A DNA stretch of 29,451 nt from IMG/VR virus record IMGVR_UViG_3300021378_000107, positions 1 through 29,451 of that record, one strand, 5' to 3'. The translations under genes and the position numbers were made by a program. Origin of the DNA: a virus. The notes below the pieces were generated by a model that ran no database searches, was not told the origin of the DNA, and worked only from the letters and a program-made list of their open reading frames with translations. Every line of letters begins with the position of its first letter. Position 1 is the stretch's first letter. Below are positions 4,872-29,451 of the stretch, piece after piece.

Positions 4872-4872
4872 T

Positions 4873-10800: not shown

Positions 10801-13800
10801 ACTGCAAATCAAGAAATATTATTAGAAAATATTTGGAAACAAAGTTATAAAATTACCAATAAGAATATACTGCCAACAGTTGGTACAATCCCTGATGATG
10901 TAGCACTTCCTACTGCAGGGTATGTAAACTATGATGATGTAGATATAAAAGTCTTTAACTTTGATGACTTAACCAATATTGCGGCTAATCTTGAAAACAT
11001 TGCTATCGGAACAAACATATGGGTAGCAAAAGCAAATTCATATGATTGGAACATTTATAGAAACAACTTAGTTAATGCACTGGTCACAACTGTAGTTGAT
11101 AACCTAAACGGTACTTGTACATTTACATTTGATACAAATCATAATTTGCTAACAGGCACTAGACTCGTTATAAAGTATTTTGACGTTGCAGTTGACGGTG
11201 CTTATATTATAGAAAGTGTTCCAAGTTTAAAGACTATCACAGTAACACTTAGTTTGCCTGGAGAAACAACTTCTCTTACAGGAATCGGATTGACACTTGC
11301 TCTTGAAAGTGTGAGATTTGCACAAGCAAGTGATGTTGTGAATTCAACATTTGCAAATGCAATAGTGCCAGGCAACCAAGCATGGGTTGACGATTACGGT
11401 GATGGCAACTGGGCAGTACTACAAAAAATAAATCCATTTGGTACCGCTACTGAATTAGATGCTGACACTCCGATACTTAATGACCTATATGGTACAACAG
11501 TTCAACAAGGAGTTACAGGTGGACTAGCAATTGGTGCACCAGGATATGCAAGCGGAAAAGGTGCCGTATACTGTTACAATAAATCAGACACTGATACATA
11601 CAAAGAAAACACAATTATGACACCTACTGCCGCTGGATTTGTAGGCACAGGCACAAGTTTAAGTGTTGGAACTATCGAACGTATAGTTGCAGGAGCACCT
11701 GCAAGTGATAGTAATAAAGGTTATGCAGTCGGTATAAGAAGAAACAGTAGTAACGGCGAATATTCGCAGACACAATTGTTTAACACAGGAACAAATGATG
11801 TAGACAACTTTGGACAAGACGTTGCAGTAAGTGCAGATGAGCGTTGGTTGTACGTAAGTGCTCCAACAGCCACTGTTAGTGGCGATTATGTTTGGGCATA
11901 TCAACAAGTTGGTGTGCAAAGTCAAACACTTAAATTTACTGGCGATGCTACAACAACAGATTTTATTATTACAGGAACAATTGTTGTCAGTGCGGTAAAT
12001 GCAACTGCACAAACACAAATAGCAGTAACCAGAAACAATGTATCACAAACTGCTGGTAGTGATTATACGGTACAAACAAGTGGCACAAATCAAGTTGTAA
12101 GATTTGGAACTGCACCAAATGAGAATGATACTATTGTAATAACAAGACGTCAAGGTGTAACTTACCTACCTTCAGGATCAACTACGGCTTTTAGCACTGC
12201 TACCTTATTCACAGTCAATGACATTTACAGTTTTGCAGTTTACTATAATGGTGCGTTGTTGCGTCCAATACACGATTATACATTTGCCGGCAATACTGTA
12301 ACGTTGCTAGTAGCAATTAGCTCTGGCACACTACTAATTGATGCAAAAACATATTGGGATTTTGTAAAAACTATTAACACCGGTGGTAGTGTTGGTGACT
12401 TACCTGGGCAAAGCATATCCACTACAACAGATGGTAGACAAGTTATCATTGGAGCACCTGGTGCTGAAGTTACTGTTGGATCTACCACAACAACTGATGC
12501 TGGTAAGGTGTACATTTATGACAGAAGTGTAGAGCGTTTCCAAGTTCAAACTGCATCAACAACCACACAAAGTTTTACAACATCTGACACACCCGAAGGC
12601 ACACCAGCAGTAACAGTAAACGGAACATACCTAGTACCAACTGCACAAAATAACAATGCAGAATTTAGTTTTAGCGGTACTACAATAACAATTGGAACTG
12701 CAACAAATCCGTACACACTTAATGTTGGTGACATTGTTGAGATCGAAACTAACAACTTTAGATTGGTTCAAACTATTAATTCGCCAACAGTAGGTGAAGC
12801 ATACAATTTTGGTCAAGTGGTAGACATGTGTAGTACAAATTGTAGTCTATATATTGCAGAACCAAATGATAGTACAATCACAGAACAAGGCGGAAGTGTT
12901 GATAGGTGGATTAATCAATCCAGATTGTTTGGAACCATTACTGGTACTGTAACTAACCCAGTTTTAACTGCCACTGATAGTATAAGAATAAACAATTATT
13001 TTGTGACCTTAACTGGAACCACAGTTGCTAGTTTAGTAACTGATATCACCACTGCAGATTTGCCAAACATTAAGGCAACCGAAGTCAGTGGAGCATTACA
13101 AATTACACTTGTTGATGTACAAGCAGGTGAAGCATTTATAAAACTACAAGTAGCACCAGGAGCAGGAACTGCGTTTGCAGATTTAGGACTCGCTCAAATG
13201 GTATTTGCACAAACTATTGTATCTCCGGTAGCACAACAGTTTGGGCATTTTGGACAAAGCCTTAAAATTGATAGCACTGCAACAACCTTAGTTGTTGGTG
13301 CTCCAGATGCTACTGCTAACTTGCCAACCACGTTTGATAGCAATACAACATATTTTGATAGTAAAAGCACACTGCTAATTGATCCTTTAGAGGAATCAGG
13401 CGTAGCATATACCTATAACTTTTTAAACGCCGCCAATGCAAGTGCAACCAATACAGGCAAGTTTGTTTTTGGACAACAGATTTACGATACAAGCATGGTA
13501 AGTTTTGATAAGTTTGGTAGTGCAGTTGATTATTATGCCGGAGTATTATTAGTCGGAGCACCAAACGATGATTTAAATGATAGTTCCGGTGATTATGGAA
13601 GAGTAACACAACTTGTTAATGCAAACAAAGAAAGTGCATGGAAAATTGTTTACAATCAGCAACCAATGGTCAACAGTGCTCTGCTTAACAGTGTGTTTAC
13701 ATATGATAAAGTAAGTAACGAAGTAGATACATATTTAGATTTCATTGATCCACTACAAGGTAAAATACTAGGAGCGGCGAGTGCTAATATAAACTATCAA

Positions 13801-16800
13801 GGTGGTATTGATCCTGCAGCCTACAACACTGGCACAGTAAACAATTTTGGTTCGCAGTGGAGAGATGAGTACTTAGGACACTTTTGGTGGGATTTAAGCA
13901 CAGTTAGATTCATTGATTATCATCAAGACACTATAGAATACAAAGCAAGACGTTGGGGACAACTGTTTCCAGGTTCGTCAGTTGATGTCTATCAATGGAC
14001 TAAGAACAGTGTTGCACCAGCAAACTACACAGGACCAGGCACAGTTTATACAACTGATAGTTACGTTGTAACCAGCGAGCTTGATAGTGCAGGAACATTT
14101 GTTTCAAATTATTATTATTGGGTCAAAGGATTATCTGCAGTTCCAACTGGCAAAACACTTAGTTCAAATGCTATTACACAATACATATCTGATCCGAGAT
14201 CAAGTGGCGTATCATACAGTGCGGCATTAAGTCAAAACACAATTGGTTTATACAATGTACGTACACAATTGGTTGGGACAGACACTATACTGCACGTTGA
14301 ATTTGATAAACTAGAAAACACTGATGCAGTACACAGTGAATATGATTTAATCACTGACAATGATCCTAACAGTTTCTTAGGCACAGGACTTTACAGAAAG
14401 TTTTTAGATAGTTATTGTGGAGTTGATACACTTGGTAACAATGTGCCAGATCCTACTTTGAGCCCTGCTGACAAATATGGTGTAAGTTTCCGTCCAAGAC
14501 AAAGTTTCTTTATAGATAGATTTCTTGCACTTGAAAATTATATGACACGTGCAAATAGGATAATGAAACTGTATCCTATATCAGAAGACAAAAGTTTTAA
14601 ATTACTAAACAGTTCAGATCCAGAACCAACAAGCGTAAGTGGTTTGTGGGATAAACGTGTGTTAACCTATGCAGAACTTACGTATCAAGATCTAAATCAA
14701 GTAGCAGTTGGTTATAACTATTTGGTAGCAAGTGACAGTACCCAAGAAGGACTATGGACAATATATACTGTAATTGCTGGACCTAGTTTACAGTTAGCAA
14801 GAGTACAAAACTATGATACACAACTATATTGGAGTTATGTAGATTGGAATGGCTTAAATGCTGATGGAACAACCTACAGTAGTGCAAATGCTAGTGCTTA
14901 CGAAGTAGAAGTGTATAGTAATCTACTTGCACTCGAAGATGTGCCAAATCAATCATGGGCTACCGTTGAATCAAACAGTTTTGGAAAGAAAGAAGTCTAT
15001 CAGTATAGCACAACAACTGGTGAGTGGACAAGAGTTTTCTTAGAAGATGGAACCATTGCAGTTGACAAAACAATTTGGGATTATTCAGTTGGAAATTTTG
15101 GCTTTGATGTTGAAGCATTTGATGCACAAAGATTTGCACAAGCGCCTGATGTTGAAACAAGACAAATACTTAAAGCATTAAACGAAGAAATTTTTGTAAA
15201 CGAACTAAAGATATTCAGGAACGAACTTCTAATACTTACATTTGAATTTATTATGAGTGAACAACCTGCTCCAGACTGGTTGATTAAGACATCACTGATT
15301 GATGTCAATCATAAAATACGTGACCTAATAGAATATCCAATTTTTAGAAGAGACAATCAGGATTTTGTAAGTCAATACATAGAAGAAGTAAAACCATATC
15401 ATGTACAAGTTAGAGAATTTAACTTACGCTATGAAGGCGAGGATACTTACAACGGTAGTATTACAGACTTTGATCTTCCTGCATATTATGATGCATTGCG
15501 AAATCAATTTGTTTCGCCTATACTAGATGATAGCGAATTTCCAACATCACTAAGTGCAGTACCAAGTACTTCTAGCGTATGGACTACATTTCCATGGAGC
15601 CAATGGTACAACAATTATAAACTTATTGTAAAAGAAGTTAAAGTTCTAAATGGCGGAAGTGGTTACACTGTACCTCCGCAAGTGGTAGTGACAGGTGATG
15701 CAACGACACAAGCAACAATGACTGCAACTGTAAACACTGCTGGTGTAGTAACCGGAATTACCGTAGACACTCTAGGAAGTGGTTATATAACTACGCCAAC
15801 ATTAACAATATCAGGTGGCAACGGAACAGGCGCAACTGCGGTAGTGGTGTTAGAACCACAACAGGTACGTGACTTTAAAACAACAGTCAAGTATGACAGA
15901 ATTACATACACCAGTCAAGTGTTAGATTGGACTGCAAGTACTGTATACACTGCTGGTCAATTAATTCGATATCCGGTACCAACACTTGGAGTTGTAAACG
16001 TTAGTTTGCCAGAAGTTTATAGTGTAAATTTTAATTTTACAAGTAGCACAGTATTTGATCCTGACAACTATACTAAAGTTGATCAATCAACACTAGATGG
16101 TGCAGACAGAACTATTGGATTATATACTCCAGAGCCAAATGAACCAGGACGTGAACTAGCACAAGTGATGACAGGTATAGACTATCCTGGCGTACAAGTT
16201 CAAGGTCCAAACTTTAATCAGAATACTGGATATGATGTTGGAAACTTTGACATAAATCCATTTGATAACATAGATTTTGGTCCAGAAGGATTACCAACAT
16301 ATGATCCTGCAATACTTGACGTCATTTACGAAAGTGAATTTACAGACACATACTTAGGTGTCCGTGCAACAGACATTAATGTAGTAGGTGGCGCTTTTAT
16401 AGATACCTATAGTTCACATGCTCCTGAAGAACTTATACCTGGAAGCGAATTTGACACACTTGATCTAAAAGTTTACACACGTCCAGGCAGTGATTGGAGC
16501 AGTGACGGACACGGCTTTAACATTGCAACAATAAATGTTGTGTTTAACGGAGCCGGAACAACACTTGATTTTACAAGTGCAATGCTACATCCAGTTGGCA
16601 TAGAAGTAATTGATATTACAAGTGGACAAAGCATTACAAACACTGCATACACAATTGACTGGGTAAACAAAGTAGTTACACTCGGTGCAACTATGCCAAG
16701 TGCAATTGGAAGTAATATTGCAATTAAGATTTATGGCCTAGGTGGCGGTTCACAGATTTACAAAGAAAGCATTGTTGGAAGTGATATTACTAGTAATGTT

Positions 16801-18468: not shown

Positions 18469-18499
18469 ACTGGTAGTTAATGAATAAGGTAAATACAGT

Positions 18500-19156
18500 A
18501 TGGAACAAGAAACAAAAAATGAGGCCATAGTGGATCAAGAAGAAAAACGTCCAAACGAAGCAGGACAACTTGCTATCAGTGGGCATATTAAGATATTTGA
18601 TCCTAATAGCGGTGAAGTTATTGTTGACAAACGAAATGCTATACACTATGAAAATATAAGTCAAAGTATAGCAAATAGTTTAGCAAATAAAACTATTGGC
18701 CAAATTTATAGTATGAGTTTTGGCAACGGCGGTAGCAGTGTTGATCCTACAGGAGTGATTACCTACTTGCCACCAAACACAACAGGACAGAATGCTAACT
18801 TGTACAATCCAACCTACTCAAAAGTAGTAGACGATAACAGTGCAAGTAACACTGACACTAGCAGTAATAACCTTACTATAACACATACAACAGGTAAAGT
18901 TTATTCAGATATACTTGTTAGTTGTCTGTTAGATTATGGCGAGCCATCAGGGCAACAAGCATTTGATAATTCAACAGATTTCAACGGTGATTATGTATTT
19001 GATGAACTAGGATTAAAAACTTGGAACGGAAGTGCAACTGACCTTAGATTGATAACACATGTTATCTTTCACCCAGTTCAAAAATCATTGAACAGACAGA
19101 TACAAATTGATTATACAGTTCGTATACAAACATTAACTAATCTTAGTGCAACATAA
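18500..19156 (+). CDS. Putative baseplate/tail structural protein (218 aa)
   Basis: The acidic N terminus (EQETKNEAIVDQEEKRPNE) is followed by a compact domain beginning GHIKIFDPNSGEVIVDKRNAIHYENIS at residues 28-54. SMSFGNGGSSVDPTG follows near residues 72-86. The C terminus is beta-rich (LITHVIFHPVQKSLNRQIQIDYTVRI). I recall similar small proteins with the KRNAIHYEN motif from the structural module of marine T4-like phages, without a proven function. It lies 31 nt after the giant gene and 28 nt before the fibre gene, so it may attach one to the other. That link is only inferred from position. ATG 18500 has a weak AAGG upstream. Confidence 0.6.
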   Translation: MEQETKNEAIVDQEEKRPNEAGQLAISGHIKIFDPNSGEVIVDKRNAIHYENISQSIANSLANKTIGQIYSMSFGNGGSSVDPTGVITYLPPNTTGQNANLYNPTYSKVVDDNSASNTDTSSNNLTITHTTGKVYSDILVSCLLDYGEPSGQQAFDNSTDFNGDYVFDELGLKTWNGSATDLRLITHVIFHPVQKSLNRQIQIDYTVRIQTLTNLSAT

Positions 19157-19159
19157 ATA
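19152..19159 (+). promoter_or_regulatory. T4-type late promoter candidate upstream of tail fibre gene
   Basis: CATAAATA, followed by C, matches TATAAATA at 7 of 8 bases and overlaps the TAA stop of the preceding gene. Predicted initiation near 19165 leaves a 20-nt leader with Shine-Dalgarno GGAG at 19172-19175. Confidence 0.45.
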
Positions 19160-19184
19160 CACTTAGAAAACGGAGTAAAACAAA

Positions 19185-20537
19185 ATGTCATATACCATTA
19201 ACTTAACAGATGGTACAATTTTTGCAGTAGTTGCGGATGGTACTATCAACACAGATTCGAGTCAGGTACTAGTCGGAAAAAACTACGCTGGTTACGGTGA
19301 ATTCTTAGACGAGAACTTCATACGTTTACTTGAAAATGCGGCAAATACATCAGCACCAGGAGCACCGTTAACAGGTCAACTTTGGTACGATAAAACAAAC
19401 AATGTGATGAAAGTGTACAACGGAACAACTTTTAAGGTTATTTCGGCTGCGACTGCATCCACTAGCCAACCAACTTCAAATATAGCTGGTGACTTATGGT
19501 TTGATACAACAAACGACCAACTTAAAGTTTATAATGGATCCACTTTTATTACTATTGGTCCAAGTTTTACAAGTGGCGAAGGAACATCAGGTGCTATTGT
19601 AACAACTATTACAGATAACGTTGCAAGTGATCACGTTGTGGTACAGATGTATGTAAACAACGTTATAGTTTCGATATTCTCAAAAGATGCTACATTTACT
19701 CCGGCAGTAGCTATTTCAGGATTTGCTACTATTGGTCCAGGTTTGAATATGAGTACAACAGTATCAAACGCAGTGTTTAACGGAACCGCAACAAATGCTG
19801 ATACACTAGATACACTCAATTCAACAAGTTTTATGAGATCAGATGCGGCCACAAGCAATAACACAAGTATCAGTGTGTTATCAGACACAGGATTATTTGT
19901 TGGTGCAGATAGTGATGCTAAAATTTCAGTTTCAGGAACTGATGTCACTATAGCCAACCAAACATCAGACGGTGATACTATATTAACAGTAAACGATGGT
20001 GGAGTTACTACAACAGTGATTCAACTTGATGGAGCAACTGCAACTGTAGGCGTAAGAGATATAACAAATTTACAAGCAGATGGTGTTGGAAACATTGGTA
20101 CTGCTAGTGTAGGATTCAATACTGTTCATGCTAAAGCAACATCAGCACAATACGCTGATATGGCTGAGCGTTTTCATGCAGATGCAGAATACGCTCCAGG
20201 AACAATTGTTGAACTAGGCGGTGTAAACGAAGTTACACTTTGCGTAGAAGAATTAAGTTCTAAAGTATTTGGTGTTGTTTCGACACAACCAGCATACTTG
20301 ATGAACGGCAATGCAGGGTCAAATGCTACGCATCCACCAATTGCGATGAGTGGAAGAGTGCCTGTAAACGTAATGGGATTTGTTACAAAAGGTGACAGAC
20401 TTGTAAGTGCCGGAAACGGAACCGCAAGAGCTGCAAACTTAGATGAGATTACAAGTTTCAACGTAATTGGACGTGCTCTAGAAAGCAAAACAGACGAAGG
20501 AATTGGCAGTATAGAAGCTATTGTAAAAATAGTTTAA
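19185..20537 (+). CDS. Tail fibre-like protein (450 aa)
   Basis: The N-terminal part has two copies of a fibre repeat: GQLWYDKTNNVMKVYNGTTF (64-83) and GDLWFDTTNDQLKVYNGSTF (102-121). A Ser/Thr-rich beta shaft follows, with hydrophobic Val/Ile alternation and few charged residues. The C-terminal domain (about 305-450) opens with SAQYADMAERFHADAEYAPG and reads through VFGVVSTQPAYLMNG to the end. YADMAE-type C-terminal domains are found in many phage fibres and are loosely reminiscent of the Peptidase_G2 autoprocessing region. No cleavage residue can be assigned. Such proteins are receptor-binding or fibre subunits attached to the baseplate. ATG 19185 has GGAG ten bases upstream. Confidence 0.75.
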   Translation: MSYTINLTDGTIFAVVADGTINTDSSQVLVGKNYAGYGEFLDENFIRLLENAANTSAPGAPLTGQLWYDKTNNVMKVYNGTTFKVISAATASTSQPTSNIAGDLWFDTTNDQLKVYNGSTFITIGPSFTSGEGTSGAIVTTITDNVASDHVVVQMYVNNVIVSIFSKDATFTPAVAISGFATIGPGLNMSTTVSNAVFNGTATNADTLDTLNSTSFMRSDAATSNNTSISVLSDTGLFVGADSDAKISVSGTDVTIANQTSDGDTILTVNDGGVTTTVIQLDGATATVGVRDITNLQADGVGNIGTASVGFNTVHAKATSAQYADMAERFHADAEYAPGTIVELGGVNEVTLCVEELSSKVFGVVSTQPAYLMNGNAGSNATHPPIAMSGRVPVNVMGFVTKGDRLVSAGNGTARAANLDEITSFNVIGRALESKTDEGIGSIEAIVKIV

Positions 20538-20540
20538 TAT

Positions 20541-20548
20541 TATAAATA
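20541..20548 (+). promoter_or_regulatory. Perfect T4-type late promoter TATAAATA
   Basis: The octamer is identical to the T4 late consensus recognised by gp55-RNA polymerase with the sliding clamp. It lies four bases after the fibre stop codon and 72 nt before ATG 20620. Expected initiation is near 20554, just before a set of palindromes in the leader. Confidence 0.7.
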
Positions 20549-20552
20549 TGTA

Positions 20553-20600
20553 GGATATCCAGCTAATAGTATAACTATTAGCGTATCATTAGATACTAAT
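20553..20600 (+). promoter_or_regulatory. Palindromic 5' leader (stacked hairpins)
   Basis: Three inverted repeats follow each other. GGATATCC is at 20553-20560. GCTAATAGT (20562-20570) pairs perfectly with ACTATTAGC (20574-20582) across a 3-nt ATA loop. GTATC (20583-20587) pairs with GATAC (20592-20596). ATTAG (20588-20592) can alternatively pair with CTAAT (20596-20600). No U-run follows, so this is not an ordinary terminator. It would lie at the very 5' end of the late transcript. Confidence 0.6.
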
Positions 20601-20619
20601 ACAAAGGAAATAAAAAGAG

Positions 20620-21573
20620 ATGACATATACAGTAGGTTCAACCATTGTAGACGACGACTACAATATATTTGCAACGGGAAATGCCGCTGGCTCCGGTGAT
20701 GACAGTGTAAACAATATTAATACTATATTGGGTACAGGAACTGGTGATAAAGGCTATGGGCAATCAACTACCTTGCCAGCAGTTAGTGCAGGTGGTACTG
20801 TAGCAGCCACAAACTGGGCAAACTTAGTAGCCAGAACTGCTACGCTCGCAGCACACCAAGGCATATCTATAACATCAATTACTCAGCCAAGTGCTGGAGA
20901 TACAGTTGCGGTTTTTGCTGCTTTATCACAGAACATAACAGATGTAAATACTAACAGAAATTTTGCAGCCGCAGAAGGATCTGACTCATCTGTATCAACT
21001 ACTTCAACTGCAGGTTGGAACAACAGTGCAACACTATCAAAAACATTTACGTTTGCAAGTGCAAATCAGTTGAGATACTTTTTTAATGCAGGTGGACAAA
21101 TTCGTTTGTCATGGAGTAGATCAGGTGGTACAACCAGTGATCAAAACACATCATGGACAAACTTGTTAACTGCTTCAGGTACATTGGTACTCACTGGTGC
21201 AGCCGCAGCTAAAACTATTAACGGTGTTTCATACACAGGCCTAACAAAAATTGGTGGCTCAGGTTCACCTACTACACTTAATACAACAGAAGGTGCATAC
21301 GCATTAGATGGTACACCATCATTGAACTTTAAACAGGTACCAAGTGCACCATATGGTTCAAACGAAATTGAAGTTTCATATAGCATATCGGGTAATGTAA
21401 TAACAATTTACACAGACTTATCAGATGACTATGCTCCACCGGATCCAGCATCACCTGATAACATTGACGGAACATTAACACAGGTATCAACTGTACGTCC
21501 GCCAAGTACAGCACAACTAAGTGATACTTGGGGAACTGTTACACAAAACACACCAAGTTGGTCACAGACATAA
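20620..21573 (+). CDS. Virion structural/tail fibre-like protein (317 aa)
   Basis: The protein begins with TYTVGSTIVDDDYNIFATG, and ATNWANLVARTATLAAHQG follows near residues 64-82. A Ser/Thr/Asn-rich beta domain contains NQLRYFFNAGGQIRLSWSRS at about residues 145-164. The FFNAGGxIR motif recurs in fibre and tail-tip-like structural proteins of marine phages, which is the basis for the call. The composition is typical of extended beta structure, with no signal peptide or membrane segment. ATG 20620 has AAGGA about ten bases upstream. It has its own perfect late promoter, and the gene is followed at 19 nt by a strong terminator, so it can be made as a single-gene transcript. The exact virion position is unknown. 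Confidence 0.65.
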   Translation: MTYTVGSTIVDDDYNIFATGNAAGSGDDSVNNINTILGTGTGDKGYGQSTTLPAVSAGGTVAATNWANLVARTATLAAHQGISITSITQPSAGDTVAVFAALSQNITDVNTNRNFAAAEGSDSSVSTTSTAGWNNSATLSKTFTFASANQLRYFFNAGGQIRLSWSRSGGTTSDQNTSWTNLLTASGTLVLTGAAAAKTINGVSYTGLTKIGGSGSPTTLNTTEGAYALDGTPSLNFKQVPSAPYGSNEIEVSYSISGNVITIYTDLSDDYAPPDPASPDNIDGTLTQVSTVRPPSTAQLSDTWGTVTQNTPSWSQT

Positions 21574-21591
21574 TTTTATAACAAATACTAC

Positions 21592-21623
21592 AAACCCTAG
21601 TTTTTATTAACTAGGGTTTTTTT
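21592..21623 (+). terminator. Intrinsic (Rho-independent) terminator closing the structural module
   Basis: AAACCCTAGTT (21592-21602) pairs perfectly with AACTAGGGTTT (21609-21619) around a TTTATT loop. Seven T residues run from 21617 to 21623. The stem is 11 bp with four G/C pairs. On the opposite strand there is no comparable T-run, so it acts in the + direction. Confidence 0.9.
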
Positions 21624-21639
21624 GTGGCTAAGTATTCGC

Positions 21640-21936
21640 ATGCAAGATTTAGTCAAAAGAATACGCAAAAGATTTGATCATCAGCAAGCAAGGCTGGTGC
21701 TTAAAGAAACATATCAAGCAAAAATGATATTTGCACACAATGGCGGTATGTGGCGTGCTGGTCCAGAGCTTTTAAGTTTATGTGAAATTTGTGATGATAC
21801 TGCAATACTACTAGACATATACGATACACCAGTACAAGTAAACACCGATGAACTACAAGTAATCGCCTTACAACTCTGGCAAGAACAGATGAATGCATGG
21901 CATGCTGAATATGAAGAAATGTCAAAACAAAGATGA
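21640..21936 (+). CDS. Conserved-looking small hypothetical protein (98 aa)
   Basis: I chose ATG 21640 (MQDLVKRIRKRFDHQQ). The in-frame TTG at 21622 falls inside the terminator T-run. The protein is helical and charged: a basic N terminus, then MIFAHNGGMWRAGPELLSL, then a C-terminal helix LQLWQEQMNAWHAEYEEMSKQR with many aromatic and acidic residues. No domain is recognised and there is no membrane segment. It is the first gene of the overlapping accessory cassette and shares ATGA with the next gene (21933-21936), so it is probably co-translated with the glycosyltransferase candidates. No clear promoter or Shine-Dalgarno was found in the 16 nt after the terminator. Confidence 0.7.
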   Translation: MQDLVKRIRKRFDHQQARLVLKETYQAKMIFAHNGGMWRAGPELLSLCEICDDTAILLDIYDTPVQVNTDELQVIALQLWQEQMNAWHAEYEEMSKQR

Positions 21937-22694
21937 CGGTTGGTGCTTTATTATATGCATTCAACAGTGATATAAAATATACCAAAATTGCTTTAGAATG
22001 TGCAAATAGGATTCAAGAATATTTAGATATTCCTGTTAGTATTGTTACAGACACTGCCTTAAACAATAGTACATTTGACAAAGAAATTATAGTAAGTAAA
22101 CCAGTAACAAAAAATTACAAATACTGGCAAGACACTGATAAAACCACACTGTGGCACAACGCTGGCAGAAGTGGAGCACTTGATGTTACACCTTATGAAC
22201 GCACCTTACTGGTGGATATAGACTATATGATCAACAGTACTGTGCTTGAAAATTTACTTAACAGTACACAAAGTTTTTTTGCACACAAAAATGTTATGCC
22301 AGCAACCAAAAAAACAACTGTAGAAACATTTGGATTACACAAAAGCACAATGTGGTGGGCAACTGTAGTTGTATTTGATAAAAGCCAATTCTCAGAAGAT
22401 GTGTTTGGAATGTGGCAAATGGTTGAACAAAATTATCAGCACTATGCAAATGCATTTCAATTTGATGGTCGTAAATTTAGAAATGATTATGCCCTAAGTA
22501 TTGCACTCTTAGTTGCTAACGGAAATACTGTACCAGAGCATTGCGATATTCCATGGCCTCTTGTTAATGTTGAGCCTGCAGTTGAAGTCTCTTTAGACGA
22601 GGACCGGTGGTCCATTGACGGAAAATTTTATACACGTAACCAGGATCTACACATAATGGGCAAAAGTTATTTGGAGAATCTATATGCAATATGA
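21933..22694 (+). CDS. Putative GT-A-fold glycosyltransferase 1 (253 aa)
   Basis: The N terminus GALLYAFNSDIKYTKIALECANRI followed by IPVSIVTD (residues 33-40) has the strand-helix-strand pattern of a nucleotide-sugar binding fold. YERTLLVDIDYMINS at 88-102 contains a hydrophobic strand ending in a DxD motif (D95, D97). In GT-A enzymes that motif binds the metal and nucleotide sugar. Length, fold pattern and motif suggest a small cytoplasmic glycosyltransferase; the donor and acceptor are unknown. It starts by ATGA overlap with the preceding gene and overlaps the next by 11 nt. The next protein appears to be a diverged paralogue. The family assignment is by motif only. Confidence 0.6.
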   Translation: MTVGALLYAFNSDIKYTKIALECANRIQEYLDIPVSIVTDTALNNSTFDKEIIVSKPVTKNYKYWQDTDKTTLWHNAGRSGALDVTPYERTLLVDIDYMINSTVLENLLNSTQSFFAHKNVMPATKKTTVETFGLHKSTMWWATVVVFDKSQFSEDVFGMWQMVEQNYQHYANAFQFDGRKFRNDYALSIALLVANGNTVPEHCDIPWPLVNVEPAVEVSLDEDRWSIDGKFYTRNQDLHIMGKSYLENLYAI

Positions 22695-23451
22695 AGCAGA
22701 CAACGGCTACATCATACCTGCAACAGAAGAATATATTCAATGTGCTGAAACACTTGCAAAAAGCATACGCTATTGGCATCCAGATGTAAAAATATGTTTG
22801 CTTACTGATATTGAATATACCAATAGTCTATTTGATTTTGTAAAACAGTTGCCATGGGGAAACACCGGTGGTTGGTCAAACGATTGGCAAGTGTATCACG
22901 CTAGTCCATTTCATGAAACAGTAAAGTTAGAAGCAGACATGATACTCAGTGGACCGGTGGACCATTGGTGGACACATTATCGCAAGTTTCCTGTTTGGAT
23001 CAGTACTGGATGTAGGAATCAATATAATAAAACTGCATACACAAGACACTATAGAAAAATATTTGATAAAAATAAACTTCCAGATGTCTATAATGCAATT
23101 ACCTATTGGCGTGTTAGCAGAGAGTCACAAGAATTTTTTAAAAGTGTTAGACAGTGCTTTGAAAAATGGGATCAAGTAAAAACAGATATACAAGGAGCAC
23201 AAGACGAAGTTGCAAATACTGATTTAATTTACGCACTGAATGCTGATGGTTATATTACTCCAGGATACGGCCCACAGATTGTACATTGTAAGCAAGAAGT
23301 GTTGCGTACATCGATCGAAGATTGGCATAAAGAACTTATATGGGAGATAGACAAAGGAGTATTTCGTATAAACGGTTACAATCAACATGGGTTTGTACAC
23401 TATCATCAAAAACAACTTGCAGTAGAATTTGGCAAATATTATGCTTGCTGA
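22684..23451 (+). CDS. Putative GT-A-fold glycosyltransferase 2 (255 aa)
   Basis: GYIIPATEEYIQCAETLAKSIR (residues 8-29), then DVKICLLTDIEY (34-45), gives the same N-terminal fold pattern as the preceding gene product. WSNDWQVYHASPFHETVKLEADMILSGP (64-91) aligns with its DxD region but reads E83-A-D85, a variant acidic pair. Later segments rich in Trp, Tyr and Asp (VYNAITYWRVS, AQDEVANTDLIYALNADGY) fit an acceptor-side domain. The start ATG 22684 lies inside the preceding gene with GGAG just upstream. Probably cytoplasmic and co-translated. The variant motif could mean altered metal use or a weakened enzyme. Confidence 0.55.
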   Translation: MQYEADNGYIIPATEEYIQCAETLAKSIRYWHPDVKICLLTDIEYTNSLFDFVKQLPWGNTGGWSNDWQVYHASPFHETVKLEADMILSGPVDHWWTHYRKFPVWISTGCRNQYNKTAYTRHYRKIFDKNKLPDVYNAITYWRVSRESQEFFKSVRQCFEKWDQVKTDIQGAQDEVANTDLIYALNADGYITPGYGPQIVHCKQEVLRTSIEDWHKELIWEIDKGVFRINGYNQHGFVHYHQKQLAVEFGKYYAC

Positions 23452-23788
23452 AGACTTTATAAAATTAATAAACGCCAGTGCTGAACTTGTAAACAAACCG
23501 GTTGACTTCACATACAGATTGTACTATAATAAAGAAACTGGTGAACCCATTGCATATAGTATGGAAAAACTAAAAGGTGATTTTGTCACAGTTACAAAAG
23601 AGCAGTATACGGTAGGTAGATATGATGTTATTGTTAAAGATGATTGTCTTGTAAGTACAGCTAGTATACAATATCTAAGAAAATTAGTGCCCAGTGCTGA
23701 TGGTATAGCATGTAATAAAACAAATGTTTTAATCTTAGATGAAACAAGTTCTACTAAGTGGAAACTTAAGACAAAGGAATTATTATGA
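23441..23788 (+). CDS. Small hypothetical phage protein (115 aa)
   Basis: ATG 23441 (MLAEDFIKLINASAE) is preferred over the in-frame TTG at 23429. The protein continues with FTYRLYYNKETGEPIAYSMEKLKG at about residues 23-46 and KDDCLVSTASIQYLRKLVPS at about 66-85. From memory, RLYY...GxPxxYSMExL proteins are common small ORFs in marine T4-like phages and have no assigned function. It is mainly beta with a Lys-rich C terminus, and there is no signal peptide or membrane segment. It overlaps the preceding gene by 11 nt and the next by ATGA, so it belongs to the same translation unit. I cannot assign a role. Confidence 0.65.
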   Translation: MLAEDFIKLINASAELVNKPVDFTYRLYYNKETGEPIAYSMEKLKGDFVTVTKEQYTVGRYDVIVKDDCLVSTASIQYLRKLVPSADGIACNKTNVLILDETSSTKWKLKTKELL

Positions 23789-24165
23789 AGTACATTATTA
23801 TTGTGATATTAGGCTTAATATCATTTACTACACATGCTCAAGAAATACCAAAACCAATGCCGAAGCCAGAAAGAACACAATTATTATTAAACATGCAGGT
23901 TCCATGTAGTCAGCAAGGCATTGAGTATCTTTCAGATATAGTAAACGAACACGGCGAACAAGAGTTTGCAAGTGGAGTGTTTGCAATAAAACCAGTATCA
24001 AAGCCAGATTTGGTCACGGTTGATTTATTAATGTATGTCAATCCTAAAACAAGAACGTTTACAATCTTTAGCTATCAAAAAGTCGGTGACTACAATATTG
24101 CATGTGTGCTTGCCGGTGGTACAGATTTCACACCATTCTCAGGTGAGTATAGAAAGAATGATTGA
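23785..24165 (+). CDS. Small exported protein with signal peptide (126 aa)
   Basis: The first 19 residues, MKYIIIVILGLISFTTHA, then QE, form a typical Sec signal peptide: a Lys, a hydrophobic core of Ile/Val/Leu, and a likely cut after THA. There is no lipobox cysteine, so the product should be periplasmic or secreted. The mature part (about 107 residues) has two cysteines (VPCSQQG and YNIACVLAGG) that could form a disulfide, and ends in a beta-rich segment with LLMYVNPKTRTFTIFSY. I recall small exported proteins with an ACVL..G ending in marine phages and bacteria; their function is unknown. It lies between a small unknown gene and a glycosyltransferase candidate, overlapping both. Confidence 0.7.
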   Translation: MKYIIIVILGLISFTTHAQEIPKPMPKPERTQLLLNMQVPCSQQGIEYLSDIVNEHGEQEFASGVFAIKPVSKPDLVTVDLLMYVNPKTRTFTIFSYQKVGDYNIACVLAGGTDFTPFSGEYRKND

Positions 24166-25081
24166 TGTTGCTGATTTAGATTGTATATACTTGAGCTATG
24201 ACGAGCCCAAAAAAGAAGAATTTTGGGTAAAAATACGCAACATGGTTCCGTGGGCTAAACGTGTAGATGGAGTACATGGATCAGATGCGGCACACAAAGC
24301 GGCTGCTGACGCAAGCGATACAGAACGTTTTATACTAATTGATGGCGATAACTTGCCACAAGAAAGTTTTTTCAACGAAACGATCGAATACAAAACAGAT
24401 CAGTACGAACAAGCAGTGTACAGATGGCGTGCCCGCAACGATATAAACGGACTTATGTATGGCAACGGAGGTATTAGCTCATGGACAAAAACGTTTGTAC
24501 AAAACATGCGTACACACGAAGCAAGTGCGGGTGCAGATGAAACTGACGTAGAATTTTGCTTTGATGATCTATATTGGCCAATGTACAACTGCTATTCAAC
24601 TACATATCCTGGAGAAAGTGCAAAACATGCTTTCCGTGCAGGCTTTAGAGAAGGCGTAAAGATGTGCCTTGATAAAGGTACCAAGCCCAGTGCAAGTGCG
24701 TTTAAAGAAAGTGTACATAATAGAAACTTAGATCATTTAACCATATGGCACAATATAGGTGCAGATACAGAACACGGACTATGGGCTATTGCAGGATCAA
24801 GACTTGGAACATATAAAACAATGTTGCAGAAGGATTGGAACTATAAAGACGTACAAGACTTTGCAAAGTTGGATGCTATATGGGAAGATGTAAAACATCT
24901 AGCACCTGGTGAATTAGTAAGTATCAAAGCCGATGATCTTGCTAGACAACTATCTTTACCAATGAATATCCTTACACCAGTACAAAGTAAGTTTTTTAAA
25001 CATCATTATCGCAGTAATTGGCACAATCAAGATATTATGACACGCGAAATTGATGTGATACGGAGCCAAGAAGGATGGTAA
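24158..25081 (+). CDS. Putative glycosyltransferase 3 with DGD motif (307 aa)
   Basis: The chosen start is ATG 24158 (MIDVADLDCIYLSYDEPK), which overlaps the preceding gene by 8 nt. The in-frame extension back to 24035 would overlap it by over 100 nt. ERFILIDGDNLPQE at residues 57-70 is a hydrophobic strand ending in D62-G-D64, a DxD-type metal/nucleotide-sugar motif. NGLMYGNGGISSW (about 107-119) and IWHNIGADTEHGLWAIAGSRLG (about 197-218) look like active-site loops. The KRVDGVHGSDAAHKAA segment precedes the motif as in small cytoplasmic GT-A enzymes. I recall similar proteins in marine cyanophages annotated only as putative glycosyltransferases. It overlaps the first radical SAM gene by 7 nt. 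It shares no obvious close similarity with the two other candidates here. Confidence 0.6.
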   Translation: MIDVADLDCIYLSYDEPKKEEFWVKIRNMVPWAKRVDGVHGSDAAHKAAADASDTERFILIDGDNLPQESFFNETIEYKTDQYEQAVYRWRARNDINGLMYGNGGISSWTKTFVQNMRTHEASAGADETDVEFCFDDLYWPMYNCYSTTYPGESAKHAFRAGFREGVKMCLDKGTKPSASAFKESVHNRNLDHLTIWHNIGADTEHGLWAIAGSRLGTYKTMLQKDWNYKDVQDFAKLDAIWEDVKHLAPGELVSIKADDLARQLSLPMNILTPVQSKFFKHHYRSNWHNQDIMTREIDVIRSQEGW

Positions 25082-26151
25082 AAGAACTTTTTGCTGATCT
25101 CAGCAAAGATTACAAATATACAATGAATGCAATGCCTCGTGGCAAAGATGAACAAAAATCAGTTTCTTTTGCCTGTAATTTGCCACATAAAGTAGTAAGC
25201 ATCGATGACAACTTAAATTGCATACTTTGTATTTGCGATGGTTGGTTGCCTATACCTGTTGGACAAGTGCAAGACTTTACAAGTTTACCTGAGATTTTTT
25301 CAAGCCCAAAAGCAAAAATTTTGCAAGCTGATATTGATGCTAAAACCTATACATGGTGTGCAGTGCAAAATTGTGGAATTAAGCATCATAATGTTTTAAG
25401 ATCTGATTATCAAGTGGTTATTAATATTGACAGGAGTTGTAATCTGCAATGTCCTAGCTGTCGGCGAGATAAATTTATGTTGACGTCTGGATCTCTGTAT
25501 GATAAAAAAATAGCTGCGGCAAACCAAATACTTACCTGGTTGGATCAGCTTGACGAACCGATCGATATTGTAACAAGCGGTGATGGTGACCCTCTTGCAA
25601 GTCTTGTTATGCGTCCATTAATAAAAAATTGGAAGTTTAAACCAAAGCAGAAGATAACAATAAAAACAAACGGCATGTTAATAAAAAAACAATTGCAAAA
25701 TACTGAAATGTTACGCAGTGCTCGTTTCAGTATTAGTGTTGATGCTGGCAGCAAAGATGTGTTTGAAAAAATTAGACTCGGCGGAAACTGGAAAATATTA
25801 TTAGATAATTTTGACTTCTTAGTTAAAAACAAGAAACAAAAATTTACATTTTTAAATTTTACTCTACAAAAAGATAACTATCGTGATTTAGAAAACTTTG
25901 TGAAATTATGCGAACACTACCAATTTTGTGGCGCAGTGTCAAAACTTTGTGATTGGGGGACTTGGAATCTGCAAGATGTTTCACAACCAGATGAGTGGAC
26001 TCAAAAAAACGGTTACTTTTATGAACATGATGTGTTACAATTAGAACATGCTAATTATAAAGAAGCCGCGTCAATTTGTACCCAGTTTTTAGATCATCCA
26101 TTGGTATACATTGATACATCAGTGAGAGAAAAGTTGTATGAAGCAAAATAA
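25075..26151 (+). CDS. Radical SAM protein 1, divergent (358 aa)
   Basis: SCNLQCPSC at residues 121-129 gives the radical SAM cluster ligands C122, C126 and C129 (CX3CX2C), which bind the [4Fe-4S] used to cleave S-adenosylmethionine. The second motif region reads TSGDGDPL near 162-169 in place of the usual GGEP. An N-terminal Cys-rich domain precedes the core: C34, C49, C52, C54, C95 and C100. It could hold an auxiliary Fe-S cluster, like a SPASM/Twitch domain placed before rather than after the core. The SSSW motif that follows the cluster in the next three proteins is missing. ATG 25075 overlaps the previous gene by 7 nt. The substrate is unknown. Confidence 0.85.
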   Translation: MVKELFADLSKDYKYTMNAMPRGKDEQKSVSFACNLPHKVVSIDDNLNCILCICDGWLPIPVGQVQDFTSLPEIFSSPKAKILQADIDAKTYTWCAVQNCGIKHHNVLRSDYQVVINIDRSCNLQCPSCRRDKFMLTSGSLYDKKIAAANQILTWLDQLDEPIDIVTSGDGDPLASLVMRPLIKNWKFKPKQKITIKTNGMLIKKQLQNTEMLRSARFSISVDAGSKDVFEKIRLGGNWKILLDNFDFLVKNKKQKFTFLNFTLQKDNYRDLENFVKLCEHYQFCGAVSKLCDWGTWNLQDVSQPDEWTQKNGYFYEHDVLQLEHANYKEAASICTQFLDHPLVYIDTSVREKLYEAK

Positions 26152-27568
26152 AGGCGATGAGGTAAACAAAGATTTTAAATCTAAGTTTCTCAGTGATGCT
26201 GAAATAGCAAAACAAAAGCTGGATACAGTAAGTTCAAGTTTCTGTTTGGCTAAATGGAAACAACTTAGTTTGCATTTGACAACCGGTATGAACAACAGTT
26301 GTTATCATCCTCCACTGCACAGAGCTGATGCTGATGCTATCAAACTCGACCCCGGTGCATTACACAACACAGAACACAAGAAGCAACAACGTAAGATGAT
26401 GCTAGAAGGCACACGCCCGCCAGAGTGTAGTTACTGTTGGGCAATGGAGGATAATGGCAAACTAAGTGACAGACACTATCGTTCTGGCGAGCCTTGGGCA
26501 ATGAAGGACTTCGAAACTATAAAGAATGTTCCGTGGGATCAGAATATAGTTCCTAGTTATGTTGAAGTAGACTTTAACAGTGCTTGTAATCTTAGTTGTA
26601 GTTATTGTTCGCCGCAGTACAGTAGTAGTTGGATGAAAGAAACCACACGAGAAGGTGCATGGCCAACCTCAACACCACACAACGACCCTAGCCACTTTGT
26701 AGGAGAACGCAGACCAATACCCGCAAGAGAACACAATCCATATGTAGAAGCGTTTTGGGAATGGTGGCCCTCACTGTATCCAGAACTTGAACATTTTAGA
26801 ATGACTGGTGGCGAACCAATGATGGATAAAAACACATATCGTGTATTTGATCATGTATTACAAAACCCATCACCAAAACTACATTTGAGTACTACATCTA
26901 ACTTCAGTGTTGAAGAAAAACTTTGGCAAAAGTATAAGGCCTATGTAACAATGCTTTGTGAAAAATCAAGCACTGTAGAACATTTCATGCAGTATGTTAG
27001 TCTTGATGGAATGTTTGAACCAGCAGAATACATGCGGCATGGATTGGACTTTAATTTGCTTTGGGACAGAGTAAACCAGTTTCTTAATGATATTCCAGAA
27101 CGTAACAGTATTACGTTTATTATTACAATGAACAATCTCAGTATCACCACACTTAAAAATTTATTTGCTGGCATACTAGGACTAAGGCAAATATACAGCA
27201 ACACTTATCAACGTATATGGTTTGATACACCGGTGTTGCGTACACCTACTTGGCAAAGTTTGCAAATACTTCCTGAAAGTTATGTACATGAGTTAGAGCT
27301 TTGCAAGATGTGGATGGATGATAATTTGGAAAAACCAGAAAAACGTTTCAAAGGATTTAAAGATTACGAAGTAGCCAGACTAGACAGAGACATTGCTTGG
27401 ATGCGTAACGGACAAAACTTAGATTCTAAGTATATACAACAAAACAAAGCAGACTTTTACAGATTCTTTAATGAGCATGATAGGCGCAGAGGTACAAACT
27501 TTTTAAAAACCTTTCCTGACATGAAAACATGGTGGAATGAGTGTAAATATTTGGCCGATAATTTTTAG
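26138..27568 (+). CDS. Radical SAM protein 2 with N-terminal Cys domain (476 aa)
   Basis: The core motif SACNLSCSYC puts the cluster ligands at C150, C154 and C157. MTGGEPMM at 222-229 is the SAM-binding GGEP motif. Just after the cluster comes YSSSWMKE. Ahead of the core, a domain with C36, C55, C97 and C100 (FCLAKW, NSCYHP, CSYCW) resembles an auxiliary-cluster domain. The C-terminal stretch (FYRFFNEHDRRRGTNF, then KTFPDMKTWWNE) is shared with the next protein and marks them as paralogues. ATG 26138 overlaps the preceding gene by 14 nt, with GAGAGAAAAG upstream. It is a probable radical enzyme on an unknown substrate, cytoplasmic. Confidence 0.88.
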   Translation: MKQNKGDEVNKDFKSKFLSDAEIAKQKLDTVSSSFCLAKWKQLSLHLTTGMNNSCYHPPLHRADADAIKLDPGALHNTEHKKQQRKMMLEGTRPPECSYCWAMEDNGKLSDRHYRSGEPWAMKDFETIKNVPWDQNIVPSYVEVDFNSACNLSCSYCSPQYSSSWMKETTREGAWPTSTPHNDPSHFVGERRPIPAREHNPYVEAFWEWWPSLYPELEHFRMTGGEPMMDKNTYRVFDHVLQNPSPKLHLSTTSNFSVEEKLWQKYKAYVTMLCEKSSTVEHFMQYVSLDGMFEPAEYMRHGLDFNLLWDRVNQFLNDIPERNSITFIITMNNLSITTLKNLFAGILGLRQIYSNTYQRIWFDTPVLRTPTWQSLQILPESYVHELELCKMWMDDNLEKPEKRFKGFKDYEVARLDRDIAWMRNGQNLDSKYIQQNKADFYRFFNEHDRRRGTNFLKTFPDMKTWWNECKYLADNF

Positions 27569-27582
27569 AAATAATTATACAT

Positions 27583-28941
27583 ATGCCAAAACAACCCAAC
27601 GAAACAGATTTAGATTATAAGCAAAGAGTATTGGACCCGCTTAGTTCAAGTATGTGCGGAGCCAAATGGTACAATGCAACCATATGGTTAGGCAGTGGCA
27701 TGACCACTAGTTGTCATCATCCTCTTCCGCATAAAGTTAGTGTCGAAGATGTTATAGCAAATCCAAAAGCACTACACAATACACCACAGAAAAAAGAAGA
27801 ACGTAGGCAAATGCAGTTTGGCGAGCGACCAAAGGGTTGCGAATACTGCTGGAAAGTAGAAGATATAGGGCGTAAAAATATTAGCGATAGAGTATACAAA
27901 AGCGTAATATACACTGATAATGAATTGCAGTGTGCCCATGCCACAGACCATAACGAAGATATAAATTTAAAAACACTTGAGATAGCATTTGATAGAACAT
28001 GTCAACTGGCTTGTAGTTATTGTAACCCTGCATTCTCCACAACATGGGTCAAAGACATCAAGAAGCACGGGACATATACCAATTTAGAATCTGATGGAAG
28101 GAATCATTTTACACATCCACATGATAGTTCGCAACTGTATAAGTTCAACGAAACAAACCCTTACATTGAAGCATTTTTCAAGTGGTGGGAATCAGACTTG
28201 CATCATACACTTGATGAGTTACGAATAACTGGCGGTGAACCAATGATGAGTGGGCACTTATGGAAACTATTAGACTGGTTTAAAGAGAATAAAGGTGCAA
28301 GTAAAACACGTATTGCTATTAATAGTAACCTACAATGTAGTATTGAAGACATAGAAAAATTACTTGACAGGGCAGATAGTGCTCCGCTTGACATATATAC
28401 TTCAAACGAAAGTCTTGGAAAACAAAGTGAATACATACGTGATGGATTAGACTGGGGTGTATGGTCTAGAAACTTACACATGCTTGCCAAGAGCAGAAAG
28501 ATACGCGGTTTGCACAACATGTGTACTATTAATGCATTATGTTTGGAATCCCTTCCTGAGTTTCTCACGTATTTGTTGCATGTAAAAGAACAACACGGCA
28601 GAGATTTTCCTAGTTTCACACTTAACATATTGCGTTTTCCAAGTTTTCAAAGTGCATTAGCATTACCAGATGAGTTACGCACATACCACAAGGATAGACT
28701 ACAACAGTGGTTTGATCAAAATGTCAACAACGATTTATTACACGAACATGAGATAAATCATACACAAAGATTATTAGACTATTTAGACGTGGTAAAAACG
28801 CCACATAGTGAGGCATTTGAGACTCCAAAACTACACAATGATTTTTGGCAATTTTACAATCAATACGATATACGTCGTAACAAAAACTTTGACAAAACAT
28901 TTCCAAGCATGAAAGAATGGCACAATGAGTTACGACTATAA
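27583..28941 (+). CDS. Radical SAM protein 3 with N-terminal Cys domain (452 aa)
   Basis: RTCQLACSYC gives cluster ligands C140, C144 and C147. ITGGEPMM at 215-222 is the SAM motif, and FSTTWVKD follows the cluster. The N-terminal domain has C25, C44, C86 and C89, with the same gaps (19, 42 and 3) as in the preceding protein. Both share KALHNT/GALHNT and an EYCW/SYCW ED segment. The C terminus FWQFYNQYDIRRNKNF, then KTFPSMKEW, is again shared. ATG 27583 follows the preceding stop by 14 nt, the only non-overlapping junction in the cassette. No Shine-Dalgarno was seen. It overlaps the next gene by 17 nt. Confidence 0.88.
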   Translation: MPKQPNETDLDYKQRVLDPLSSSMCGAKWYNATIWLGSGMTTSCHHPLPHKVSVEDVIANPKALHNTPQKKEERRQMQFGERPKGCEYCWKVEDIGRKNISDRVYKSVIYTDNELQCAHATDHNEDINLKTLEIAFDRTCQLACSYCNPAFSTTWVKDIKKHGTYTNLESDGRNHFTHPHDSSQLYKFNETNPYIEAFFKWWESDLHHTLDELRITGGEPMMSGHLWKLLDWFKENKGASKTRIAINSNLQCSIEDIEKLLDRADSAPLDIYTSNESLGKQSEYIRDGLDWGVWSRNLHMLAKSRKIRGLHNMCTINALCLESLPEFLTYLLHVKEQHGRDFPSFTLNILRFPSFQSALALPDELRTYHKDRLQQWFDQNVNNDLLHEHEINHTQRLLDYLDVVKTPHSEAFETPKLHNDFWQFYNQYDIRRNKNFDKTFPSMKEWHNELRL

Positions 28942-29451
28942 CAGTAGCGATCCAATAAAGATAAAGTTAGATGATCTAGAAACACGTGAGCGTTTCCTAC
29001 TAAGCGAAAGCAAAACATTTTGTATGTATCCTTGGATACATCTACACGCATATCCAACAGGCGAAGCATATCCTTGTTGTCATGCTGAAATGGGTGTAGG
29101 ACAGGTAGGCAACTGTAAAACAAACACCATGACTGAAATATGGAATAGTGCAGAACAAAAGCAACTGCGTAAAGACATGCTAACAGAAACAGAGAACAGT
29201 GCATGCGGACGTTGTTACGAACAGGAGAAGTCAGGCTTCTTCTCAGGTAGACAAAGTGCAAACAAGCATCACGGACATCACATACACAGAACAAAAGACA
29301 CCGCACCAGACGGTGCATACAACGACTTTCAAATGACCTATTGGGATATACGTTTTTCAAATCTTTGTAACCTGAGTTGCCGAAGTTGTGGACATATATT
29401 TTCAAGCAGTTGGTACAAAGATCAAACTGCACTTGCAGGTCCAGAATGGGC
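28925..29451 (+). CDS. Radical SAM protein 4 with N-terminal SPASM/Twitch-like domain (3' partial)
   Basis: The frame opens at ATG 28925 (MSYDYNSSDPIKIK) inside the end of the preceding gene and runs off the right edge after 175 codons. The N-terminal domain is FCMYPWIHLHAYPTGEAYPCC (C33, C51, C52), then NCKTNTMTEIWNS (C64), LRKDML, and CGRCYEQE (C94, C97). It resembles the SPASM/Twitch auxiliary Fe-S region usually found after the radical SAM core. The core begins NLCNLSCRSC with C148, C152 and C155, and FSSSWYKD follows. From memory, proteins of this layout are annotated in marine phages as twitch-domain radical SAM proteins of unknown function. The GGEP part lies outside the window. Confidence 0.85.
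   Translation, partial: MSYDYNSSDPIKIKLDDLETRERFLLSESKTFCMYPWIHLHAYPTGEAYPCCHAEMGVGQVGNCKTNTMTEIWNSAEQKQLRKDMLTETENSACGRCYEQEKSGFFSGRQSANKHHGHHIHRTKDTAPDGAYNDFQMTYWDIRFSNLCNLSCRSCGHIFSSSWYKDQTALAGPEW

Follow-up and report, generated by a model that had tools for sequence, protein, structure and literature searches.

Radical S-adenosylmethionine (SAM) genes of ocean phages have previously been noted as auxiliary genes. In the parts of the literature available to us, Tasman Sea samples are described as enriched in phage radical SAM genes (PMC7150976), the T4-like environmental genome TARA_ERS488813_N000010 is reported to encode an A-type carrier and paaD besides 12 radical SAM genes (PMC5332604), and the host recognition cluster of pelagimyophages is described as holding glycosyltransferases and radical SAM cassettes (PMC7029224). 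On the enzyme side, the relevant section of PMC6231123 gives CX9-15GX4C as the start of the SPASM/twitch motif and describes the auxiliary cluster of the enzyme BtrN as ligated by four cysteines. Here we analyse a stretch of viral DNA, IMG/VR virus record IMGVR_UViG_3300021378_000107, whose full 29,451 bases we call the window and which ends in four consecutive radical SAM genes, T1 to T4. Three of these, together with two genes (T5 and T6) that follow in a near-identical record, form a five-gene unit kept in constant order among related phages, and in each of the five an auxiliary domain of predicted SPASM/twitch type stands before the radical SAM core.

The four genes of the window lie on the plus strand and are tightly packed. 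T1 (25075-26151, 358 aa) overlaps T2 (26138-27568, 476 aa) by 14 bases, a gap of 14 bases separates T2 from T3 (27583-28941, 452 aa), and T3 overlaps T4 (28925-29451, 175 of 427 aa) by 17 bases. An earlier note on this DNA had described four consecutive CX3CX2C genes at 25075-29451, and the open reading frames and motif positions bear this out: the motif lies at C122/126/129 in T1 (25438-25461), C150/154/157 in T2 (26585-26608), C140/144/147 in T3 (28000-28023) and C148/152/155 in T4 (29366-29389), and it is invariant in the relatives aligned. The SSSW-like motif that the note placed after the cluster of proteins 2-4 is likewise present, as SSSW, STTW and SSSW, and its first serine is invariant in 32 aligned family members. 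T4 is cut by the contig end. Because a twin record (L005; IMGVR_UViG_3300021375_000011, 120,835 bases) is nearly identical to window positions 16138-29451 (99.98% identity, three mismatches), we read past the end there, where T4 is intact at 427 aa. A sequencing or assembly artefact was considered and dropped in view of the open frames, the existence of this second record, and the ratio of nonsynonymous (dN) to synonymous (dS) divergence, T2 differing from its six nearest distinct relatives by a dN of about 0.07-0.08 and a dS of about 1.0-1.5.

All four proteins have a cysteine-rich domain ahead of the core; the canonical position of a SPASM/twitch domain is after the core barrel. The upstream cysteines of T2 (C36/55/97/100, 26243-26437) and T3 (C25/44/86/89, 27655-27849) have identical gaps of 19, 42 and 3, and T4 is a near match (C33/C51/C52/C94/C97, 29021-29215 from C33 to C97), as had been claimed. 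The same gap triple arose in the N-terminal parts of T2 and T3 in 0 of 200,000 shuffles; the shared spacing exceeds chance. The ligand-type cysteines are kept throughout the families, in 80/80 members for T2, 72/72 for T3, 68/68 for T4, 59/59 for T5, 55/55 for T6 and 8/8 for T1, counting sequences of at least 80% of the reference length (all members for T2 and T1, 72 of 77 for T3, 68 of 71 for T4, 59 of 67 for T5 and 55 of 59 for T6). The pattern is CX13GX4C in T2 and T3 and CX12GX4C in T4, followed in each by CX2C, which fits the published start of the SPASM/twitch motif. From the CX12GX4C spacing, C51 rather than C52 is the likely ligand in T4.

Profile searches point the same way. Curated NCBIfam family NF033640 (N_Twi_rSAM, cut-off 170 bits) has the domain order of T2-T6 and matches all five genes, at 299.6 bits for T2, 285.0 for T3, 338.6 for T5 and 292.4 for T6; T4 scores 405.9 bits at full length in the twin record and 164.3 bits when cut by the contig end. 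Thus, the permuted architecture is already catalogued. The Pfam SPASM model PF13186 (cut-off 21.5 bits) matches T4 at 44.7 bits and also T5 and T6 over its cut-off, and gives no match for T2 or T3 at E 0.1. When a profile of 23 N-domains from T2-T4 and their relatives was searched against the PDB up to E 10, three sequences were returned: two of BtrN at E 0.007, over chain residues 166-238 and 186-258, which correspond to its C-terminal twitch domain, and an unrelated ribosomal protein at E 0.62. BtrN is therefore the only relevant PDB relative of the domain in this search, and the alignment includes its C169, C187, C232 and C235, which we take to be the four ligands of its auxiliary cluster. 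Against a full-length profile, the BtrN twitch falls on the earlier part (E 0.11) and the BtrN core on the later part (E 0.0023), so that, as far as these weak scores allow, the domain order is permuted relative to BtrN.

The AlphaFold2 model of T2 (predicted local distance difference test score, pLDDT, 93.5; predicted template modelling score 0.91) has C36 and C55 on either side of a hairpin and a helix leading up to C97, an arrangement that, in the model, is as in twitch domains. Foldseek and VIA-align comparisons with the PDB match mainly the core, and we draw no statement on the N-domain from them. Taken at the level of sequence, the N-terminal domain of T2-T4 is a SPASM/twitch domain relocated to the N-terminus, and its four cysteines would form a metal site. 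The earlier note had proposed such a permutation four times over; it holds for genes 2-4 on the Pfam SPASM, BtrN and NF033640 matches, and is less certain for gene 1. The searches with PF04055 and SPASM models that it had suggested gave a divided outcome, since SPASM passes for T4 and fails for T2 and T3, while PF04055 (gathering threshold 29.5 bits) is exceeded by T1 (46.8) and T5 (46.7), and T2 (18.5), T3 (20.9) and, at full length, T4 (24.8) and T6 (23.8) remain under it. In structure, the T2 model aligns with barrels of the radical SAM superfamily, the highest Z being 14.0.

Only one or two cysteines per family are conserved after the core, and thus no C-terminal cluster pattern is present. 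One post-core cysteine is invariant in each of the families T4 (C298, 68/68), T5 (C292, 59/59) and T6 (C263, 55/55). Radical SAM epimerases use a cysteine as hydrogen donor, and these residues could have such a role. Separately, a cargo radical SAM protein of the same island in another locus (L033, 6656-7525) has post-core cysteines that, by eye, resemble a canonical C-terminal twitch, so that a single island may contain the two domain orders.

T1 stands apart from the other genes. Its N-terminal cysteines are C34/49/52/54/95/100 (25174-25374 from C34 to C100), with C34-x12-L-x4-C52 and C95-x4-C100; compared with the SPASM start motif, leucine replaces glycine and CX4C replaces CX2C. NF033640 scores 28.6 bits against T1, below its cut-off and over the radical SAM part only. 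The Pfam SPASM model, run at E up to 10, matched five of six T1 N-domains (best E 1.2e-6) and gave the window's own copy 14.8 bits. The question raised in the note, whether the domain might prove unrelated between the proteins, has a split answer: T2-T4 share one family, and hhalign did not join the T1 N-domain to that of T2-T6 (probability 0.3%). A T1 N-domain profile searched against the PDB returned only a protein E7 chain (E 0.088) and not BtrN, and the T1 model has pLDDT below 50 over residues 1-36 and 93-108, among others. The T1 cluster occurs in 8/80 loci, and a search for additional T1 relatives found only the twin record. T1 is an accessory gene of a more distant family; we take its N-domain to be of the same type as in T2-T6, with less certainty.

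We considered how widely the array is shared. Virus contigs yielded 150 relatives of T2, of which the best 80 loci were kept, and gene order was counted in loci with at least 9.5 kb of downstream DNA, which set aside 31/80. T2, T3, T4, T5 and T6 are all present in 49/49 of the remaining loci, and in 48/49 they stand in the order T2-T3-T4-T5-T6. The conserved unit is therefore five genes, T2-T6, and not the four of the earlier note, whose array is present in the window with its first gene as an accessory. A second set of loci was fetched without any radical SAM query, with the structural gene of positions 18500-19156 as query (at least 591 loci, of which the best 80 were used; the same length limit set aside 37 of 79 newly numbered ones). 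T2 lies 3' of that gene in 40/42 of these loci. Twenty of the 42 are on first-set contigs, by comparison of contig names by eye; T2 is present in 21 of the 22 on other contigs, some of which may belong to the 70 T2 relatives not kept in the first set. T2 is absent from L206 and L194; L194 shares its contig with L055, and T2 is present farther along that contig. The array thus goes with this phage lineage.

Whole records give a similar picture. In 20 virus records that we chose from the 80 loci, N_Twi_rSAM matches at E 0.001 number 5 to 15 per record, and between 3 and 11 exceed the cut-off; in the record with three (G006) the contig stops within the array. At E 0.001 matches occur in all 14 control genomes as well, none of them over the cut-off. 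Among 50,697 phage records we found no T2 relatives (E 1e-5), no megablast match to window 18500-29451 and no relatives of the neighbouring protein P0007; the only matches to full-length T4 and T6 were in Vibrio phages K566 and K567, and the B12-type radical SAM protein encoded next to T4 (see below) matched Streptomyces phage SF3 alone, in two records. A BFVD structure search reached further than the sequence searches, including Vibrio phage KVP40.

To look for cellular counterparts, genomes of bacteria and archaea were scanned once, with only two peptide patterns. The scan returned 33 loci, 25 of them with titles that we assign to Bdellovibrionota, and ten were taken on to whole genomes, all of which contain N_Twi_rSAM matches over the cut-off. 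On one contig of a Bacteriovoracaceae metagenome-assembled genome (MAG; locus L088, DIVA01000093.1), eight genes that exceed the cut-off are packed into about 12 kb. When 64 proteins were placed in a tree (30 rows from phage T2-T6 and 34 others, including two from Vibrio phage K566), each phage family formed one group and each was joined by its own L088 gene, with support of 100/99 for T2, 100/100 for T3 (two L088 genes), 100/99 for T5, 100/100 for T6 (also an L094 gene) and 99/71 for T4. The constant order in phages, together with side-by-side counterparts on a bacterial contig, makes it probable that the five genes serve one pathway, in line with the multi-enzyme pathway that the note had suggested. 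By eye, the neighbours on the L088 contig read as Obg, ribosomal L27, RlmH and Lgt, so the contig is probably chromosomal. Arrays of N-twitch radical SAM genes also occur in the Bdellovibrionota loci L121-L128 as in L088, with 13 over-cut-off genes in genome G029.

The array is carried by a phage, as the note had stated. Upstream on the plus strand lie baseplate wedge subunits (1032-1412 and 1464-4871, PHROG matches) and a 4531-aa virion structural protein (4873-18468, PHROG 10938), the latter one single gene in the window, followed by three virion or tail-fibre-type genes. The first (18500-19156) belongs to an unnamed phage family in PHROG and is kept in 65/80 loci, the second (19185-20537) has PHROG tail-fibre and structural matches (73/80), and the third (20620-21573) has no PHROG match (76/80). 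With baseplate, structural and tail-fibre-type genes upstream of the array, the phage context is sound.

The island begins directly 3' of the tail-fibre-type genes, and its first members resemble glycosyltransferases to varying degrees. P0006 (21933-22694, plus strand, 77/80 loci) contains a DxD motif and is glycosyltransferase-like by that motif only, with no pertinent match in a Pfam scan or in a PDB profile search of its family. P0007 (22684-23451, plus, 76/80) is glycosyltransferase-like by inference, with weak Mannosyl_trans3 matches in 2/16 relatives. P0005 (24035-25081, plus), also DxD-containing, has sub-threshold similarity to glycosyltransferase family 2 among its relatives, the Pfam models matching 5 and 2 of 15 relatives and none matching P0005 itself; a gene of its type lies 3' of the structural gene in 42/42 loci. 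Its true start is probably M42 (about 24158), since the median length of its cluster is 309 aa. PDB profile searches with the families of P0006, P0007, P0005 and the cargo family A8 returned nothing usable. In the bacterial set, N-twitch genes have a P0005-type gene nearby in at least 8/33 loci and P0006- and P0007-type genes in one (L116) among the matches listed, and relatives of the B12-type protein occur in L124, L097 and, more weakly, L093 among those matches.

Downstream of T4, the twin record encodes the B12-type radical SAM protein (B12-binding match below cut-off), T5, a nucleosidase, a 387-aa protein and T6, and then a methyltransferase, a SAM synthetase, a carbamoyltransferase, an FeS_assembly_P protein, which lies close to the array, a DegT aminotransferase and an epimerase. 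The nucleosidase matches PF01048 over its cut-off and models of the methylthioadenosine/S-adenosylhomocysteine (MTA/SAH) type below theirs. The 387-aa protein (L005, 17647-18810) has no Pfam, NCBIfam or PHROG match at the thresholds used; a TGGIDS stretch in it is reminiscent of the ATP-binding loop of asparagine-synthetase-like enzymes. Carbamoyltransferase, epimerase and DegT aminotransferase families occur in 20/20 of the virus records, DegT as short, weak pieces only in G018 and G020. The carbamoyltransferase lies within 5 kb of T6 in 19/20 (distances read from tables), and full-length DegT and epimerase genes lie within about 13 kb of it in 18/20. The exception to the first count is G006 (299,910 bases), in which the array is at the right end and the carbamoyltransferase at the left, an arrangement that suggests a circular or permuted genome. 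The nucleosidase is found in 7/20 records, between T5 and T6 in 7/7, the SAM synthetase in 8/20 (near the array in 6/8) and an A-type Fe-S carrier in 10/20, away from the array. Cargo between the core genes varies: three informative Pfam matches among ten representative proteins scanned are to an NAD-dependent epimerase, a 4,6-dehydratase-like enzyme and a cytidylyltransferase, and others resemble, by eye, sulfotransferases and SGNH hydrolases.

The sugar genes near the array suggest a carbamoylated amino-sugar product, and the position of the island 3' of tail-fibre genes suggests a glycan of the virion. We suggest that T2-T6 form a phage radical pathway that tailors such a glycan on tail fibres or on the host surface, a reading to which we give about an even chance of being right, because the core folds are mixed and the glycosyltransferases are identified by DxD motifs and sub-threshold matches. 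Each enzyme would cleave SAM at its CX3CX2C cluster and take a hydrogen from the substrate, and the N-terminal twitch cluster could take up or relay the electron, a role that the consulted section of PMC6231123 suggests for the C-terminal twitch of BtrN. The product shared by the five enzymes would most likely be an unusual carbamoylated amino-sugar glycan, which the glycosyltransferase-like proteins of the island would place on tail fibres or host surface. In some phages a phage SAM synthetase, Fe-S assembly proteins and a nucleosidase, presumably acting on MTA/SAH and 5'-deoxyadenosine, would support the demand for SAM and Fe-S clusters.

Several observations weigh against this reading. The nucleosidase and SAM synthetase are found in a minority of records, and most of the supporting families are also frequent in the 14 control genomes (epimerase 14, DegT 14, nucleosidase family 13, SAM synthetase 10, A-type carrier 9), with the carbamoyltransferase in three. 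The glycosyltransferase-like neighbours have sub-threshold family matches or none. Counterparts of all five genes were seen on one bacterial contig only, from a MAG, and the grouping of T4 with that contig is the weakest of the five. The similarity to BtrN is itself weak and lies in the twitch domain rather than in the active site. The fold, finally, does not favour sugars over peptides: in comparisons of the T2 model with the PDB, the peptide enzymes SkfB (Z 14.0) and SuiB (13.0) rank alongside BlsE and DesII (both 13.4), which we take to be sugar-acting enzymes.

This ranking of folds also bears on a different reading, in which the array modifies protein: the twitch enzymes would act on tail-fibre polypeptides, by epimerisation, cross-links or formation of C-C or thioether bonds, in the manner of the SPASM/twitch enzymes that modify sulfatases and the precursors of ribosomally synthesized and post-translationally modified peptides (RiPPs). 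In its favour, SkfB, SuiB and anSME are among the best core folds, sactisynthases and anSME being described as working on peptides in the same section of PMC6231123, and conserved tail-fibre-type genes stand directly upstream of the island. Against it, no peptide-recognition domain was found in T1-T6 (Pfam, E 0.1), and the overlaps and the 14-base gap leave the four window genes without space for an intervening RiPP precursor gene (shorter open reading frames elsewhere in the island were not screened). The sugar-nucleotide, carbamoyl and aminotransferase families in 20/20 records point elsewhere, and no tail-fibre gene was recognised by eye around the bacterial set. We regard protein modification as a doubtful possibility.

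The same sugar families would also serve a pathway whose target is not the virion but the surface polysaccharide of the infected host, altered for instance to counter superinfection; the available part of PMC7029224 proposes this for the glycosyltransferases of a similar pelagimyophage island with radical SAM cassettes. A strict gene order (48/49) amid variable cargo is easier to reconcile with a constant component of the phage than with adaptation to changing hosts, and nothing that we found ties the product to the host envelope; we think this reading unlikely. A role on nucleotides or DNA bases, in hypermodified phage DNA or viperin-like chain terminators, was raised by viperin structures among the core fold matches and by weak matches to the viperin family. 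The fold matches reflect the shared core, and the viperin scores reach at most 30.8 bits against a curated cut-off of 180; the viperin-like role was dropped for this reason, and action on nucleotides in general is very improbable, although no search aimed at base-hypermodification genes was made. Returning to the glycan pathway, a bolder form of it would make the T2-T6 orthologues an ancient portable pathway of widespread large tailed phages and predatory Bdellovibrionota, producing a novel radical-made amino-sugar glycan fixed on tail fibre and predator surface for host attachment. We offer this as speculation that is probably wrong in at least some of its parts.

How, then, does this locus compare with what has been described? 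With its fixed order of five enzymes, its counterparts on a bacterial contig and, in some records, SAM synthetase, nucleosidase and Fe-S assembly genes of the phage's own, it would be an unusually elaborate phage metabolic pathway, close to a core trait of its lineage. The domain architecture, as far as profiles define it, is that of NF033640, for which the outputs assign no reaction and which is silent on the five-gene set, its order, phage islands and partner genes; we found no paper on the N-terminal twitch domain or on five such genes in constant order in a search that left preprints and most subscription journals outside. BtrN (PDB 4m7s and 4m7t), a butirosin enzyme that carries out a dehydrogenation, has a four-cysteine twitch with CX12GX4C...CX2C in the aligned part, at its C-terminus where that of T2-T4 is N-terminal, and the marginal similarity (E 0.007) does not imply the same reaction. 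In the available parts of PMC7029224, PMC5332604 and PMC7150976, domain order and the five-gene set are not described. The pelagimyophage host recognition cluster (PMC7029224) is likewise a T4-like island near tail-fibre and baseplate genes; as described there, however, it is non-syntenic and its radical SAM cassettes differ between two genomes, whereas here five genes stand in constant order. TARA_ERS488813_N000010 resembles the present phages in combining many radical SAM genes with an A-type carrier and paaD in one phage, and the part of PMC5332604 at hand does not describe their domain architecture, gene order or pathway.

Relatives are also present in a cultured phage, Vibrio phage KVP40, as three genes, KVP40.0260,.0261 and.0272 (4056-5045, 5038-6162 and 12445-13497 of the segment KVP40 131000-148000, our locus L213), annotated as moaA/nifB/pqqE family or heme biosynthesis domain. 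The three match NF033640 from position 2-4 and below its cut-off, and all have twitch-type cysteines (C...C, then CX2C) before CX3CX2C, with CX12G in two. They differ from the present array in being three rather than five and in lying in a different genome neighbourhood, where one of them is two genes from a protein with an annotated match to PF00534, a glycosyltransferase family. Because a cultured phage carries these relatives, the function of the array is testable, and the N-terminal twitch family would gain a biological setting open to experiment.

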